NCBI RefSeq assembly: GCF_901827155.1
Contig: NZ_LR594659.1
Location: forward strand, 4,792,501-4,856,500
Reading direction: 5' to 3'
Source of the DNA: Variovorax sp. PBL-H6
GTDB taxonomy: Bacteria > Pseudomonadota > Gammaproteobacteria > Burkholderiales > Burkholderiaceae_C
Length of the DNA stretch: 64,000 bases
Below the pieces are notes generated by a model. That model did no database searches. It was not told the DNA's origin and saw only the letters and a program-made list of their open reading frames with translations. Shown piece by piece: positions 11,795 through 57,331 of the stretch. The position numbers and the translations under genes were made by a program. How positions within the stretch are numbered: the stretch's first letter is position 1; each line of letters starts with the position of its first letter.

Positions 11795-11950
11795 ATGGAC
11801 AAGATCATCCTGGACTCGGCGGGCGATGGCCGCTGCTATGAATGTCTGGGGCTGCACGGCTCCCGCATCCTGACCCGCAGCCATGTGGAAGCCTGCTTCT
11901 GGCATTCACTCGGGTATGTCGTGCTTCACTATTCGCACTGGCCGGCGTGA
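11795..11950 (+). CDS. small Cys/His-containing ORF (51 residues)
   Basis: Not recognised. GGAGG sits 6 nt upstream of the ATG, an excellent translation signal. The 51-residue product has a CxxC pair at residues 14 and 17, a third Cys at 34, and His at 21, 30, 37, 45 and 48, a pattern that could bind metal; the C-terminus is aromatic (HYSHWP). The reading frame stays open upstream, so the start rests on the ribosome-binding site. A second small ORF follows 40 nt later. It may be a real small protein or a leader peptide. Confidence 0.45.
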   Translation: MDKIILDSAGDGRCYECLGLHGSRILTRSHVEACFWHSLGYVVLHYSHWPA

Positions 11951-11990
11951 AGCCGTCAAGCACGCCCTTCGCCCTTCAGGGAGAACAAAC

Positions 11991-12113
11991 ATGCTGATCG
12001 TCATGAGGACCGTTCCCAGGGCGCAGGACGCGCGCCTGGTCGTAGCGTGCATACGCGCCTGCATCTGGGCGTCCGTCGAAGGACGTCCCTTCTGTCCGCT
12101 GCGCCAGGACTGA
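11991..12113 (+). CDS. small ORF (40 residues)
   Basis: Not recognised. AGGGAG stands 7 nt upstream of the ATG. The 40-residue product starts MLIVMRTVPR and has Cys at 20, 24 and 35 with two Trp/Ile-rich segments between. It would follow the 51-residue ORF on one transcript, and a hairpin lies just after its stop. The upstream frame is open, so it could be chance. Two successive small ORFs, each with a strong ribosome-binding site, raise the likelihood that they are real. Confidence 0.4.
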   Translation: MLIVMRTVPRAQDARLVVACIRACIWASVEGRPFCPLRQD

Positions 12114-12127
12114 ACAGATCATCCGGT

Positions 12128-12153: not shown

Positions 12154-12516
12154 CTAAAGATGGAGAACGCCCAGCCGCGCTGCCTGCGCGACCGCATCGG
12201 TCCTGCCTGTGGCGTCGAGCTTGTCGATCAGCGAACCCACATGGAACTTCGCGGTGTGCACCGAGATGCCGAGACGCCGGGCAATGAGCTTGTTCGATGC
12301 GCCCTCGGCCACCAGGGCAAGCACTTCCAACTCGCGCCGGGTCAGGGCTGAGTCCATCGCTTTGCCCCGCTGCGCCGCCTCTGGCAGCACCACGGCCACG
12401 TCGGCCGTCTCGCCACCCTGGGCCACGCGGATGTCAGGCGCCACGGCCAGAGCGGCGGCAAGGCGCTGCGACAAGGCCTCGTCCTCGATCTCGAGGGCGA
12501 CCACGATCGGCTTCAT
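12154..12516 (-). CDS. short LuxR-type DNA-binding regulator with vestigial receiver
   Basis: A 120-residue protein. Residues 56-120 form a LuxR/NarL-type helix-turn-helix (LTRRELEVLALVAEG, then SNKLIARRLGISVHTAKFHV), complete and typical. The N-terminal 50 residues (MKPIVVALEIEDEALSQRL, then VAVVLPEAA) resemble the outer strands of a response-regulator receiver but are too short to hold the acidic pocket and phosphorylated Asp. No histidine kinase is adjacent. It starts 20 nt after the pseudoprotease gene, so the two are probably one operon and the pseudoprotease a candidate signalling partner. No clear ribosome-binding site. Confidence 0.88.
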   Translation of the reverse strand: MKPIVVALEIEDEALSQRLAAALAVAPDIRVAQGGETADVAVVLPEAAQRGKAMDSALTRRELEVLALVAEGASNKLIARRLGISVHTAKFHVGSLIDKLDATGRTDAVAQAARLGVLHL

Positions 12517-12536
12517 AGCGGCATTGTCGACCGCAC

Positions 12537-13421
12537 TCAATCTGCCGGCCGCTCCCCCACCGTCAGCCGTGCCTCCATTGCCTCGCCTGCGCGCCGCAGA
12601 GACAGCACGAGGACCGTCCCTACGCTCGCCGGACCCAGGGCGCGCAGCAGCAGGGGCACGCTGCGAATCGGCTGCCCGTTCAATGCCACGATGACGTCGC
12701 CCTGCCGAACCCCGGCCGATGCGCCGGGCCCCGGCTCCGCGACGCTCATCACCATCGCGCCGACACTCCCTGCGTCCACTCGCACCGGCTGCAGGCTCAG
12801 CCCGAGATAACCGCGCGGGATGCGGCCGTGCGACAGAAGCTGCGCGGCAACGCGCTCGATCGTGGCCGCGGGGATGAGCAGCACGCGCCGTCGCGGACCG
12901 AACACCGCCATGCCGGCCGCATGACCCTTTGCATTGAGCACGATGCCTCCCTCCGCGCCGAGTTGCAGCTGCAGGTCGAGCTCGACGCGCGCGTCGATCT
13001 CCCCACCGCGCAGGCTGCGCCATGCCGGCCCGGCCAGCGAGACCAGCCCGCCCGCCACCAGTGGCAGGCCCTCGCGCGCGCCGACGGCGAGCACCATCTC
13101 GCCGGCACGCAGCGGCCCGGCATCGAAGACCACCGGCGGCGCCGTTACGCCATCGCAGCGCAGCAGCAGCACATCGGTAGTGGGGTCGCGCCCCGCTACC
13201 TTGGCCGCGACCATCGCGCCGCCGGACAGCTGGAGTTCGGCCTCCTCGTCTTCCGGCAGACCTTCCTCGGAAGTCACGACCCATCCGGGCCGCCAAACGA
13301 ATCCGCTGGCGCGCGCGTTGCGCGTCTGGATCGCGAGCACGCTGGCCGCGACGGCGCTCACAGCATCGGCCGCCGAAGTCGACATCACCTCAAGCGGAGA
13401 CGGGGAAAAAACCTTCGACAT
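12537..13421 (-). CDS. PDZ-containing S1C (HtrA-like) pseudoprotease
   Basis: A 294-residue protein with the HtrA layout: trypsin-like domain (about 20-195) then one PDZ domain (about 203-288: YLGLSLQPV, then GASAGVRQGDVIVALNGQPI). The triad is broken. Where HtrA has TNxHVV this protein has TSEEGL (Glu at 53 for His); the Asp is kept at 83 (TTDVLLLR); where HtrA has GNSGGP it has GAEGGI (Glu at 157 for Ser). No signal peptide, so it should be cytoplasmic, unlike DegP or DegS. AAGGAG lies 6 nt upstream of the chosen ATG; another ATG is 24 nt upstream. Probably a binding or sensing protein cotranscribed with the LuxR regulator. Confidence 0.85.
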   Translation of the reverse strand: MSKVFSPSPLEVMSTSAADAVSAVAASVLAIQTRNARASGFVWRPGWVVTSEEGLPEDEEAELQLSGGAMVAAKVAGRDPTTDVLLLRCDGVTAPPVVFDAGPLRAGEMVLAVGAREGLPLVAGGLVSLAGPAWRSLRGGEIDARVELDLQLQLGAEGGIVLNAKGHAAGMAVFGPRRRVLLIPAATIERVAAQLLSHGRIPRGYLGLSLQPVRVDAGSVGAMVMSVAEPGPGASAGVRQGDVIVALNGQPIRSVPLLLRALGPASVGTVLVLSLRRAGEAMEARLTVGERPAD

Positions 13422-13655
13422 CGCAGCTCCTTGAATGCTCAGCATTGTCGAAAGCTCGCCGCCGCGTGGCTACTGCCCGGTTGGGCAGGACGCGCTTCAA
13501 GAGAGCTCACGCGTGCCGCGCAGCGTCACGCGCTCCGCTGGGCAATGCCTCGATTGTTTCCAGCCTGCGAACACCGCGGTTCAAAGCACGGTGTTTTTTC
13601 GAGGGGCGTTCGTCTCAAACTAGTCCCCATCGACAACCCATCTGAAGGACCTGAA

Positions 13656-14006
13656 ATGAATGCCTCGAAACTCATCGCTACTGCAGCCTTTTCGCTTCTG
13701 GCCGTCGCCGGGGCACAAGCTGAAACCTACGAAGGCGTGCACTCGCTGACCTCCTCGGCCAGCCGAAGCGAAGTGGCCACGCAAGCGGTTGCGGCCGCGC
13801 GCGCCGGCAACCTCTATGCCGACGGCGCAAGTGCCGGCGCTCAGACCTTCGACTCTACGGCCGATCGCTCTCAAGTGCGTGCGGAAGCCGTAGCCAAGGC
13901 ACACGATCCGTTCGCGAGCCTCGACCGCCGCGCCTTCTATCGCGACGAAGTCCCCGCCGCTTACAAGAGGCCGAAGGTGTCGTTCACGCGTCAGGCGGGC
14001 CTCTGA
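13656..14006 (+). CDS. secreted small repeat protein, unknown function
   Basis: A 116-residue protein with a clear signal peptide (MNASKLIATAAFSLLAVAGAQA, cleavage probably after AQA). The mature part holds two related segments, SRSEVATQAVAAARAG and DRSQVRAEAVAKAHDP, a motif resembling DUF4148-type periplasmic proteins of Burkholderiales. The C-terminus is basic and aromatic (RRAFYRDEVPAAYKRPKVSF). GAAGGACC precedes the ATG. It is monocistronic, with an intrinsic terminator after it. I do not know its function; periplasmic location is the firmest inference. Confidence 0.8.
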   Translation: MNASKLIATAAFSLLAVAGAQAETYEGVHSLTSSASRSEVATQAVAAARAGNLYADGASAGAQTFDSTADRSQVRAEAVAKAHDPFASLDRRAFYRDEVPAAYKRPKVSFTRQAGL

Positions 14007-55381: not shown

Positions 55382-56242
55382 CTACGTGCTTCCCCGGCGA
55401 TCTGCCGACACGCCCATCAGCGCCGACAGACGCGGCAGCGCGTCGACCGCGTTGTGGGTGGTGGCTGCGGCCAGTGCTTCGACCGTGATCCCGCGCAGCC
55501 CTGCCAGGACCTCGGCGATGCGGGGCAGTTCGCCGGGCTCGTTGCGGCCCTGCGGCTCGCCCGCGGCGCGCTGCGCTTGCGTGCGATAGAGCCACTGGGG
55601 CTGGATGTCGGGCGAGTCGGTCTCGAGCACGATCGCCTCCAGCGGCAGCTCGGTCGCGAGGCGGCGCAGCTGCAGCGCGCGCTCGAAGGTCAGGGCACCG
55701 CCAAAGCCCAGCTTCAACCCGAGCGCGAGACAGGCCTGCGCCTGCTGAATGCTGCCGTTGAAGGCGTGGGCGATACCGTGCCAATGCCCCTCGGGCGCCA
55801 CCTGGCGCAGATGCTTGAGCACCTGGTCCACCGAGCGACGCACATGAATGATCACCGGCAGCCCGTGCTTGCGGGCAAGCTGCAACTGTGTGTGAAAGAC
55901 GTGCGCCTGCCACGCCGGATCGAGCCCGGGGACGAAGAAGTCGAGCCCGATCTCGCCCACTGCGACGAGGCGCGGGTCCTCGCGGCGGCGCGCGAGCTCC
56001 GCATCGAGCTGCGCAAGATGCTCATCCTGCGCCTCGTTGGTACACAGCGGATGGATGCCGAGTGCGTAGGCGTCGTCCTGCGCATGCGCGAGCTCGCGCA
56101 CCCTTGCGAAATTCGCGACGGCCACCGCCGGAATCACGCAAAGCGCCACGTTGCGTTGGGCCGCGCGCGCGCGCACGGCGGGCATCTCGCCGCCGAACTC
56201 CGGGGCATCCAGGTGGCAATGGGTATCGACGAAGACAGCCAT
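55382..56242 (-). CDS. TatD-family metal-dependent hydrolase (DNase)
   Basis: A 286-residue TIM-barrel metal hydrolase. FVDTHCHLDAPEF carries the HxH metal site; VGEIGLDFF provides Glu, and VIIHVRRS the next His. TatD and its relatives are 3'-5' exonucleases or D-aminoacyl-tRNA deacylase-like enzymes. The Asp near the C-terminus (VLETDSPDIQPQW) is the last ligand. The ATG at MAVFVDT matches the family. It is divergent from the membrane-anchored protease, sharing 90 nt. Confidence 0.92.
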   Translation of the reverse strand: MAVFVDTHCHLDAPEFGGEMPAVRARAAQRNVALCVIPAVAVANFARVRELAHAQDDAYALGIHPLCTNEAQDEHLAQLDAELARRREDPRLVAVGEIGLDFFVPGLDPAWQAHVFHTQLQLARKHGLPVIIHVRRSVDQVLKHLRQVAPEGHWHGIAHAFNGSIQQAQACLALGLKLGFGGALTFERALQLRRLATELPLEAIVLETDSPDIQPQWLYRTQAQRAAGEPQGRNEPGELPRIAEVLAGLRGITVEALAAATTHNAVDALPRLSALMGVSADRRGST

Positions 56243-56332
56243 CTGCAGATGATGCCCGAAGGCATGCACAGGCGCGGAAAGCGTGCTACCGTGCCTGCTC
56301 ACGCGTGGACTTTTTTAGCCGGAGGTGTCCCG

Positions 56333-57331
56333 ATGCGCAGGCCAGCTTTCTACAGTCGCTCGCCCCGCACGCCGCTCGATGACGCGGCCGATGCCGGGAC
56401 GCCGCAGCAGCCCGACGGGTCCCCCGGCGACGCATCGGCTCCGGCCGCTGCACCTGCCGCCAAGCGTGGCTGGCAGCCCGGCCGCCGCAGCTTCGCGCTG
56501 CTGCTCGCGCTCAGCATCGGGTCGGCCGCCACCAGCGTCGCGTTGTGGCCGCGCCAGAACATCCGCCAGTACACGCAGAAGGACATCGACGCCGCCGTCC
56601 TGCGCACCCTGCACACCGCCACCCTGCCCTCGCCGGCCGCCAAGGCCGCAGAGATCATCCGTCCCTCGGTGGTGCGCGTGGTGGGCTACGGTCCCGAGAA
56701 GAAAACGCCCGAAGCCCAGACCCAGAAGCAGGGCCGCAACATGGCCAAGGGCAAGGCGCCGGAGGCGCAGCCGGACGAGCCGCCCGGCGAGGTCGAGCGT
56801 GGCGTCGGCACCGGCGTTGTGATCGTCGACAAGGGCATCATCCTCACCAACCTGCACGTGGTCGCGGGCGCCGAGAAGATCAAGGTCACCTTCGCCGACG
56901 GCCTCGAGGCACCCGCCGTCATCACCGGCGTGCAGCCCGAGAACGACCTGGCCGTGTTGCAGGCCCAGAAGCTGCCCGACGACCTGATCCCGGCCGTGAT
57001 GCGCTCGACCGCCGACCTGCAACCCGGCGACCAGGTGGCCGCCGTGGGCTTTCCCTTCGGCATCGGGCCGTCGGTTTCCGCAGGCGTCGTCTCGGGCCTC
57101 AAGCGCTCTTTCCGCTCGCCGGAAGGCAAGCAGGAGCTCGGGAACCTGATCCAGTTCGACGCCGCCGCCAACCCAGGCAACTCGGGCGGGCCGCTCGTCA
57201 ACATGAACGGCGAGGTGCTCGGCATCGTCACCGCCATCCTCAACCCCACGCAGCAGCGCACCTTCATTGGCATCGGATTTGCAGTACCGATCGAGAACGC
57301 CGCCTCGGCCGCCGGTTCGCCGCCCTTCTGA
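56333..57331 (+). CDS. membrane-anchored S1C trypsin-like protease without PDZ domain
   Basis: A 332-residue protein. A 50-residue Pro/Ala-rich cytoplasmic stretch is followed by one transmembrane segment (about 52-72), then a periplasmic trypsin-like domain with an intact triad: His175 in TNLHVV, Asp205 in ENDLAVL and Ser284 in GNSGGP. No PDZ domain follows; the protein ends soon after GIGFAVPIEN. GGAGG precedes the ATG. It is 32 nt upstream of moxR and probably in the same operon, so it may work with the MoxR/VWA system as an envelope protease. Confidence 0.9.
   Translation: MRRPAFYSRSPRTPLDDAADAGTPQQPDGSPGDASAPAAAPAAKRGWQPGRRSFALLLALSIGSAATSVALWPRQNIRQYTQKDIDAAVLRTLHTATLPSPAAKAAEIIRPSVVRVVGYGPEKKTPEAQTQKQGRNMAKGKAPEAQPDEPPGEVERGVGTGVVIVDKGIILTNLHVVAGAEKIKVTFADGLEAPAVITGVQPENDLAVLQAQKLPDDLIPAVMRSTADLQPGDQVAAVGFPFGIGPSVSAGVVSGLKRSFRSPEGKQELGNLIQFDAAANPGNSGGPLVNMNGEVLGIVTAILNPTQQRTFIGIGFAVPIENAASAAGSPPF

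Follow-up and report, generated by a model that had tools for sequence, protein, structure and literature searches.

An HtrA-like pseudoprotease and a LuxR-type regulator form a conserved gene pair with a palindromic operator: a possible cytoplasmic damage switch

Genes and features of the locus

The window analysed here is a stretch of 64,000 nucleotides from Variovorax sp. PBL-H6 (contig NZ_LR594659.1, positions 4,792,501–4,856,500), in which two genes follow each other closely on the minus strand. The first (12537..13421) encodes P0001, a protein of 294 amino acids for which Pfam, a structure model and fold searches all give a trypsin-like fold of the HtrA type followed by one PDZ domain. 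The second (12154..12540) encodes a regulator of the LuxR/NarL type, recognized from its open reading frame and from Pfam, with 128 residues if it is read from a TTG at 12540 or 120 if it is read from an ATG at 12516. Trypsin_2 (E = 4e-14) and PDZ_2 (E = 5e-11) are the only Pfam models found in the 294 residues of P0001. The trypsin-like double barrel and the PDZ domain are those of the HtrA/Deg proteases (S1C), but the catalytic His-Asp-Ser triad of this family is missing from P0001, as seen in the alignment with DegP, in the motifs and in a 228-row family alignment. Glu53 (codon at 13263..13265, minus strand) occupies the His position, Asp83 (13173..13175, minus strand) is retained at the Asp position and Glu157 (12951..12953, minus strand) takes the place of the Ser, where some Bradyrhizobium homologues have a Gln. 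An earlier note made from the letters of this DNA had read the same two Glu residues, the retained Asp and a PDZ domain after the trypsin-like domain; the DegP alignment, the motifs and Pfam bear out this reading. No signal peptide or membrane anchor is visible when the N-terminus is read by eye, and P0001 is likely to be cytoplasmic.

Conservation of the catalytic positions and of the PDZ loop

The best 120 of 3784 homologues (P0001 included) have Glu at position 53 in 119 cases, Glu at position 157 in 118 (two have Gln) and Asp at position 83 in 114 (six have Asn), a conservation that excludes a sequencing error at the two Glu codons. A comparison of homologues at these two residues had been proposed as a check in the earlier note, and we extended it to an alignment of 228 rows, drawn from 108 loci and from 120 proteins that partly overlap with them. 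Position 53 is Glu in 225 rows, with D, N and G once each; position 157 is Glu in 188, the other 40 having Gln; position 83 is Asp in 212, G in eight, N in six and A in two. Judged by its sequences, the sampled family is one of conserved pseudoproteases, since none of the 228 rows has a His at 53 or a Ser at 157; homologues with an intact triad, which would have spoken against the note's reading, do not appear among them. A Gly replaces the catalytic Asp in all eight genomes of genus g248. The predicted ligand-binding loop of the PDZ domain, R203-G-Y-L-G-L (12798..12815, minus strand), belongs to the most conserved parts of the pseudoprotease (RGYLG), with R203, G204, Y205 and G207 present in 228/228 rows.

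The three carboxylates that stand in place of the triad could form a new ligand or metal site, with which the pseudoprotease would sense an ion or a small molecule and signal to the regulator; a precedent is MamO, a metal-binding pseudoprotease (PMC4794232). We consider this improbable, and rated it lower in view of the Gln found at position 157 in 40 of the 228 rows and of the loss of Asp83 from several lineages (Gly in eight rows, Ala in two, Asn in six), which leave only Glu53 nearly fixed. Moreover, a divergent subfamily has a His at the Ser position (L336), and the metal site of MamO is a surface di-histidine and not the triad (PMC4794232).

Pairing across genomes

The two genes were compared in 92 loci, 84 of them distinct (L001, 80 named loci and 11 further loci), and in every one of the 92 the gene immediately downstream of the pseudoprotease, on the same strand, encodes a relative of the regulator. 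We then surveyed 398 Pseudomonadota genomes, scoring for each genome the best six candidates for the pseudoprotease and the best ten for the regulator, which limits the meaning of an absence. The pseudoprotease profile separates 17 genomes, at 296–477 bits, from a next match at 154 bits, and the regulator profile likewise separates 17, at 95–200 bits, from a next match at 72 bits. Both profiles select the same 17 genomes, and in all 17 the coordinates place the genes next to each other. The co-occurrence that the earlier note had proposed looking for is thus found in the locus set and, from either gene, in the survey.

The distribution of the pair is uneven. It is patchy in Variovorax, the genus of the window (12 of 61 genomes), and common in the Bradyrhizobium-type genus (82 of 98 genomes, six of which carry a divergent form). 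Sequences are highly conserved among loci of Variovorax, Polaromonas, Reyranella, Telmatospirillum, Methylobacterium and Bradyrhizobium. The divergent version was seen in some Bradyrhizobium-type genomes at L336–L339 (G880, G852, G872 and G878): besides the His at the Ser position in L336, its regulator is about 190–200 residues long in L337–L339 and ends in ETITL or ETINL.

The regulator and its C-terminal tail

Pfam finds a GerE/LuxR helix–turn–helix in the regulator (PF00196, E = 1.5e-17), of the NarL/FixJ type, with about 55 residues ahead of it; the earlier note had seen only about 50 residues in place of a receiver. A receiver domain with a phosphoacceptor Asp has no Pfam match in the regulator of the window, nor does a receiver model match the long form of about 200 residues from L139. 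In a structure model of middling quality (pLDDT 76, pTM 0.42), the N-terminus of the main-family regulator consists of a strand, a helix and two further strands, the first half of a fold like that of receivers. With this low-confidence model, Foldseek returns full-length response regulators as the nearest folds, at a weak E value of 5e-4, and only three matches reach E = 0.001. The N-terminal half is likely to be of receiver ancestry, to which these matches point weakly. In genus g248 (L136–L143), the regulator is about 200 residues long, with a degenerate N-terminal half.

The start of the regulator gene bears on how closely the two genes are joined. The earlier note gave a spacing of 20 nt, which holds if the ATG at 12516 is the start; the TTG at 12540, from which this ATG lies 24 nt further on, offers instead an overlap of 4 nt with the stop of the pseudoprotease. 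A start with the same 4-nt overlap is available in 90 of the 92 loci (GTG in 57, TTG in 31 and ATG in two), the exceptions being L118 (20 nt) and L100, where the regulator frame is broken, and comparison of the loci makes this overlap the likely arrangement. In L100 (Bradyrhizobium manausense BR 3351) the break lies ahead of the helix–turn–helix part, and the pseudoprotease frame is intact.

The regulator ends in GVLHL-COOH (codons at 12157..12171, minus strand), a free hydrophobic C-terminus of the Phi-x-Phi-COOH form of PDZ ligands. All 62 distinct tails of the family end in this way, including those of g248 (GLVLV) and of the divergent pairs (ETITL and ETINL), and each of the best 120 of 7979 regulator homologues ends in G[VI][IL]xL at a fixed length. 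The same ending occurs in three of 12 other LuxR proteins used as controls, and in two of 29 in the genome of the window. The tail is modelled as disordered, lacking secondary structure (pLDDT about 59). From the comparison of tails, we lean slightly towards a docking of this proposed ligand in the PDZ domain of the partner; the conserved hydrophobic end could instead serve in dimer packing. The earlier note had imagined a cytoplasmic pair that dispenses with a kinase and in which the PDZ protein may control the regulator through binding. Control by binding gains indirect support because the PDZ-ligand-like tail and the PDZ loop are invariant and half of the receiver is missing, and this proposal may be regarded as partly supported.

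The palindromic operator and a candidate promoter

Ahead of the pair lies a palindrome that reads CTGCCC-AACC-GGGCAG on the minus strand (13473..13488). Its general form, CTGSCC-N4-GGSCAG, is found 40–72 nt ahead of the pseudoprotease start with 12/12 positions in 88 of the 92 loci and 11/12 in the other four (80 and four, respectively, of the 84 distinct loci). The upstream sequences of the pair otherwise differ, the palindrome being the exception. When each upstream sequence was shuffled 20 times, a 12/12 site never appeared and an 11/12 site did so in 1.0% of cases. In 15 Variovorax and Polaromonas loci, 184,550 bases in total, there are 15 exact sites. The genome of the window has six exact CTGCCC-N4-GGGCAG sequences, the other five of which all lie within predicted frames, including a weak one of 66 residues. 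A −10-like hexamer, GACAAT (13444..13449, minus strand), follows the operator by 23 nt, and an xAxxxT hexamer stands at exactly this distance past the palindrome in 76 of the 92 loci; we take it as a candidate promoter element from this conserved spacing. The position of the palindrome would suit an activator site beside the −35 position. The regulator very probably binds the palindrome.

The pseudoprotease might also be no more than an HtrA paralogue in decay, which has lost its catalytic residues, has no function and adjoins a regulator to which it is unrelated. This is extremely improbable: decay is contradicted by the high conservation over six genera, by the conserved operator and by the strict pairing. 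A second alternative is that the regulator activates or represses the operon by itself and that the pseudoprotease serves other clients as a chaperone or adaptor, being the regulator's neighbour only for co-expression. The conserved operator ahead of the pair would by itself explain autoregulation, and an HtrA fold whose PDZ loop is intact could serve as a chaperone. However, this leaves unexplained the strict reciprocal presence of the two genes and their possible start overlap, as well as the fixed PDZ-ligand-like tail, a form seen in only two of the 29 control proteins of the same genome, and we hold it to be quite unlikely.

A 13-bp palindrome, AATGCTCAGCATT, beside the start codon of the window gene was also considered and was dropped, being absent from the closest relatives. 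Divergent from the pair in the window, a gene at 13656–14006 (plus strand) encodes a small, exported-looking protein with a weak match to DUF4148 below the cut-off, and a related gene also adjoins the pair in L037. Two very small frames (11796–11951 and 11992–12114, plus strand) are convergent with the regulator gene; the first (product MDKIILDS.GDG..YECLGL) seems, by eye, to be found again in L040 (Variovorax sp. KK3), where it lies downstream of the pair.

A third gene encodes an HtrA with an intact triad

In 16 loci (ten distinct), the regulator is followed after 7–10 nt by a gene for an HtrA-like protein of about 320–350 residues; this count leaves out L127, where the third gene is present. 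In all 16 adjacent third genes the motifs of His, Asp and Ser are intact, and a signal peptide is not visible by eye in any of them. In genus g248, an intact HtrA homologous to the third gene is divergent from the pair in 8/8 genomes, and the intergenic region that they share carries two palindromes at 11/12 in all eight. A close form of the third gene (above 540 bits) occurs in nine of the 12 Variovorax genomes with the pair (adjacent in seven, unlinked in two) and in none of the 49 without it (Fisher p = 1e-8, kinship ignored). Fifteen of these 49 have a more distant HtrA (313–382 bits), and none of six such loci carries the palindrome. The unlinked third genes that bear it are both Variovorax copies (L197 and L198) and one from Methylobacterium (L199); it was not found at L200 and L201. 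The clade of the window itself (G000, G403 and G448) has the pair and lacks a close third gene, and therefore only autoregulation is left there.

In the Bradyrhizobium-type genomes, the third gene is not linked to the pair and occurs more widely (in 92 of 98 genomes, against 82 for the pair). Here, we collected 97 upstream regions, 96 of them with a start found, leaving out two short matches. A 12/12 palindrome lies within 140 nt of the third gene in 41 of the 79 genomes that have the main pair, while 38 of the 79 have no 12/12 site within this distance, seven of them showing an 11/12 site. The 12/12 site is found in one of six genomes with the divergent pair and in one of 11 without a pair (Fisher p = 0.003, kinship ignored). 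Against these counts, the background holds one site in 705,468 positions, which lies where the L061 locus is expected to have its own operator. It is likely, from the distribution of these sites, that a regulon joins the pair to the protease gene in many, though not all, lineages, and the regulator probably controls the third gene wherever the site is present.

We may wonder at this stage whether the third protein, rather than the regulator, is the object on which the pseudoprotease acts. This is the main rival explanation: the pseudoprotease would enter mixed trimers with this active cytosolic HtrA or activate it allosterically, and the regulator would only set the amounts of both. There is a precedent in MamO, an HtrA-like pseudoprotease that boosts the proteolytic activity of its active relative MamE (PMC4794232), and the third gene is adjacent to the pair in 16 loci, is divergent from it in eight and shares its operator in many genomes. 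On the other hand, the obligate partner of the pseudoprotease in 17/17 genomes is the regulator and not the third gene, three Variovorax genomes keep the pair without a close third gene, and Bradyrhizobium-type genomes can have the third gene without the pair. In a phylogenetic tree, moreover, the pseudoprotease and the third protein form separate groups (supports 100/100 and 100/99) on long branches. Taken together, we judge this explanation to be unlikely, if still the foremost of the alternatives.

The same tree does not support a derivation of the pseudoprotease from the third gene, since the former is not nested in the group of the latter, with the warning that attaches to long branches. 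Some Bradyrhizobium loci have another HtrA gene about 2.5 kb upstream, which was not counted as a third gene; with a hydrophobic N-terminus by eye, its product is apparently an ordinary exported HtrA.

Proposed mechanism

We propose, as a possibility that we hold with less than even confidence, that the pair works as a single damage switch of the cytoplasm: the PDZ domain would hold the tail of the regulator, and the response would raise the pair and, where present, the protease. In the resting cell, the PDZ domain of the pseudoprotease would dock the regulator tail and keep the regulator off or inactive. When cytosolic proteins are damaged, their exposed hydrophobic C-termini would compete for the PDZ domain, and this competition would free the regulator, which could then bind the palindrome just upstream of the −10-like hexamer and activate its own operon and, where it is present, the protease gene. 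The levels of pseudoprotease, regulator and protease would rise together, and the newly made pseudoprotease would shut the response off and so reset the switch. The whole chain, with the pseudoprotease as an anti-activator and damaged cytosolic C-termini as the signal, is conceivable and falls somewhat short of an even chance, the direction as anti-activator rather than co-activator being its least certain step.

Relation to known systems

HtrA proteins are known as envelope proteases. P0001 differs from HtrA/Deg members of S1C such as MucD, DegQ, DegP and DegS in that its His and Ser are replaced, in its size of 294 residues, in the invariable presence of an adjoining LuxR-type regulator gene and in having no signal peptide or membrane anchor visible by eye. 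In the DegS/RseA/sigma-E system, the PDZ domain of DegS reads exposed C-termini, and DegS signals to transcription by its cleavage, in the periplasm, of an anti-sigma factor. The reading of exposed C-termini by the PDZ domain of an HtrA fold and a transcriptional output would be common to that pathway and to the one proposed here, whereas P0001 lacks the residues for cutting and is paired with a protein that is itself DNA-binding. Degenerate receivers are a common feature of regulators. With NarL/FixJ and pseudo-receiver regulators, the family shares the GerE-type helix–turn–helix and, in the long forms of about 200 residues of g248 and of the divergent pairs, a degenerate N-terminal half; it differs in the window family by its mere 55 or so residues before the helix–turn–helix and by the lack of a Pfam receiver. 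How pseudo-receivers are activated is called a mystery in a 2025 review (PMC12632262). MamO, too, is a trypsin-like relative of HtrA that is no longer catalytic and whose locus also encodes an active relative; yet it has a Thr at the nucleophile position and a C-terminal transporter (TauE) domain in addition to its surface di-His metal site, and a regulator partner is not mentioned for it in the available text of that report (PMC4794232). A TauE-type domain is absent from P0001 by Pfam over its 294 residues.

The HtrA fold, the pseudoprotease and the NarL-type helix–turn–helix with a lost receiver are thus known kinds already. We found no description of such a pair, with its operator, protease target or tail, in the open-licence papers searched, and what appears to be new is the strict pairing, the palindromic operator, the protease target and the Phi-x-Phi tail. 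The unit joins two puzzles and names a likely binding surface (the five-residue tail and the PDZ loop), a likely DNA site and a likely target gene. It is a tentative idea, on which we would place rather limited confidence, that a dead cytosolic HtrA-PDZ protein acts as a sensor that is neither a kinase nor proteolytic, releases a half-receiver LuxR regulator upon damage and thereby switches on a cytosolic HtrA via a dedicated operator. Were it true, a pseudoprotease would act as the receptor of a signal through its hold on a transcription factor, and the bacterial cytoplasm would possess an HtrA-based pathway for protein damage, a counterpart of the DegS–sigma-E pathway without proteolysis.

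Other HtrA-like and LuxR-type genes

Elsewhere in the window, a frame at 55454–57331 (plus strand) contains an HtrA-like protease domain at about 56780–57292 with a GNSGG motif and a hydrophobic stretch ahead of it; no PDZ domain is visible before the end of the frame, and its product matches the A3 profile only over positions 51–210. The genes just downstream are, to judge by their sequences, presumably MoxR-like and DUF58-like. In the same genome, at G000:C1:2857251-2865530, four LuxR-type regulators with frames of about 880–920 residues lie within about 8.3 kb.
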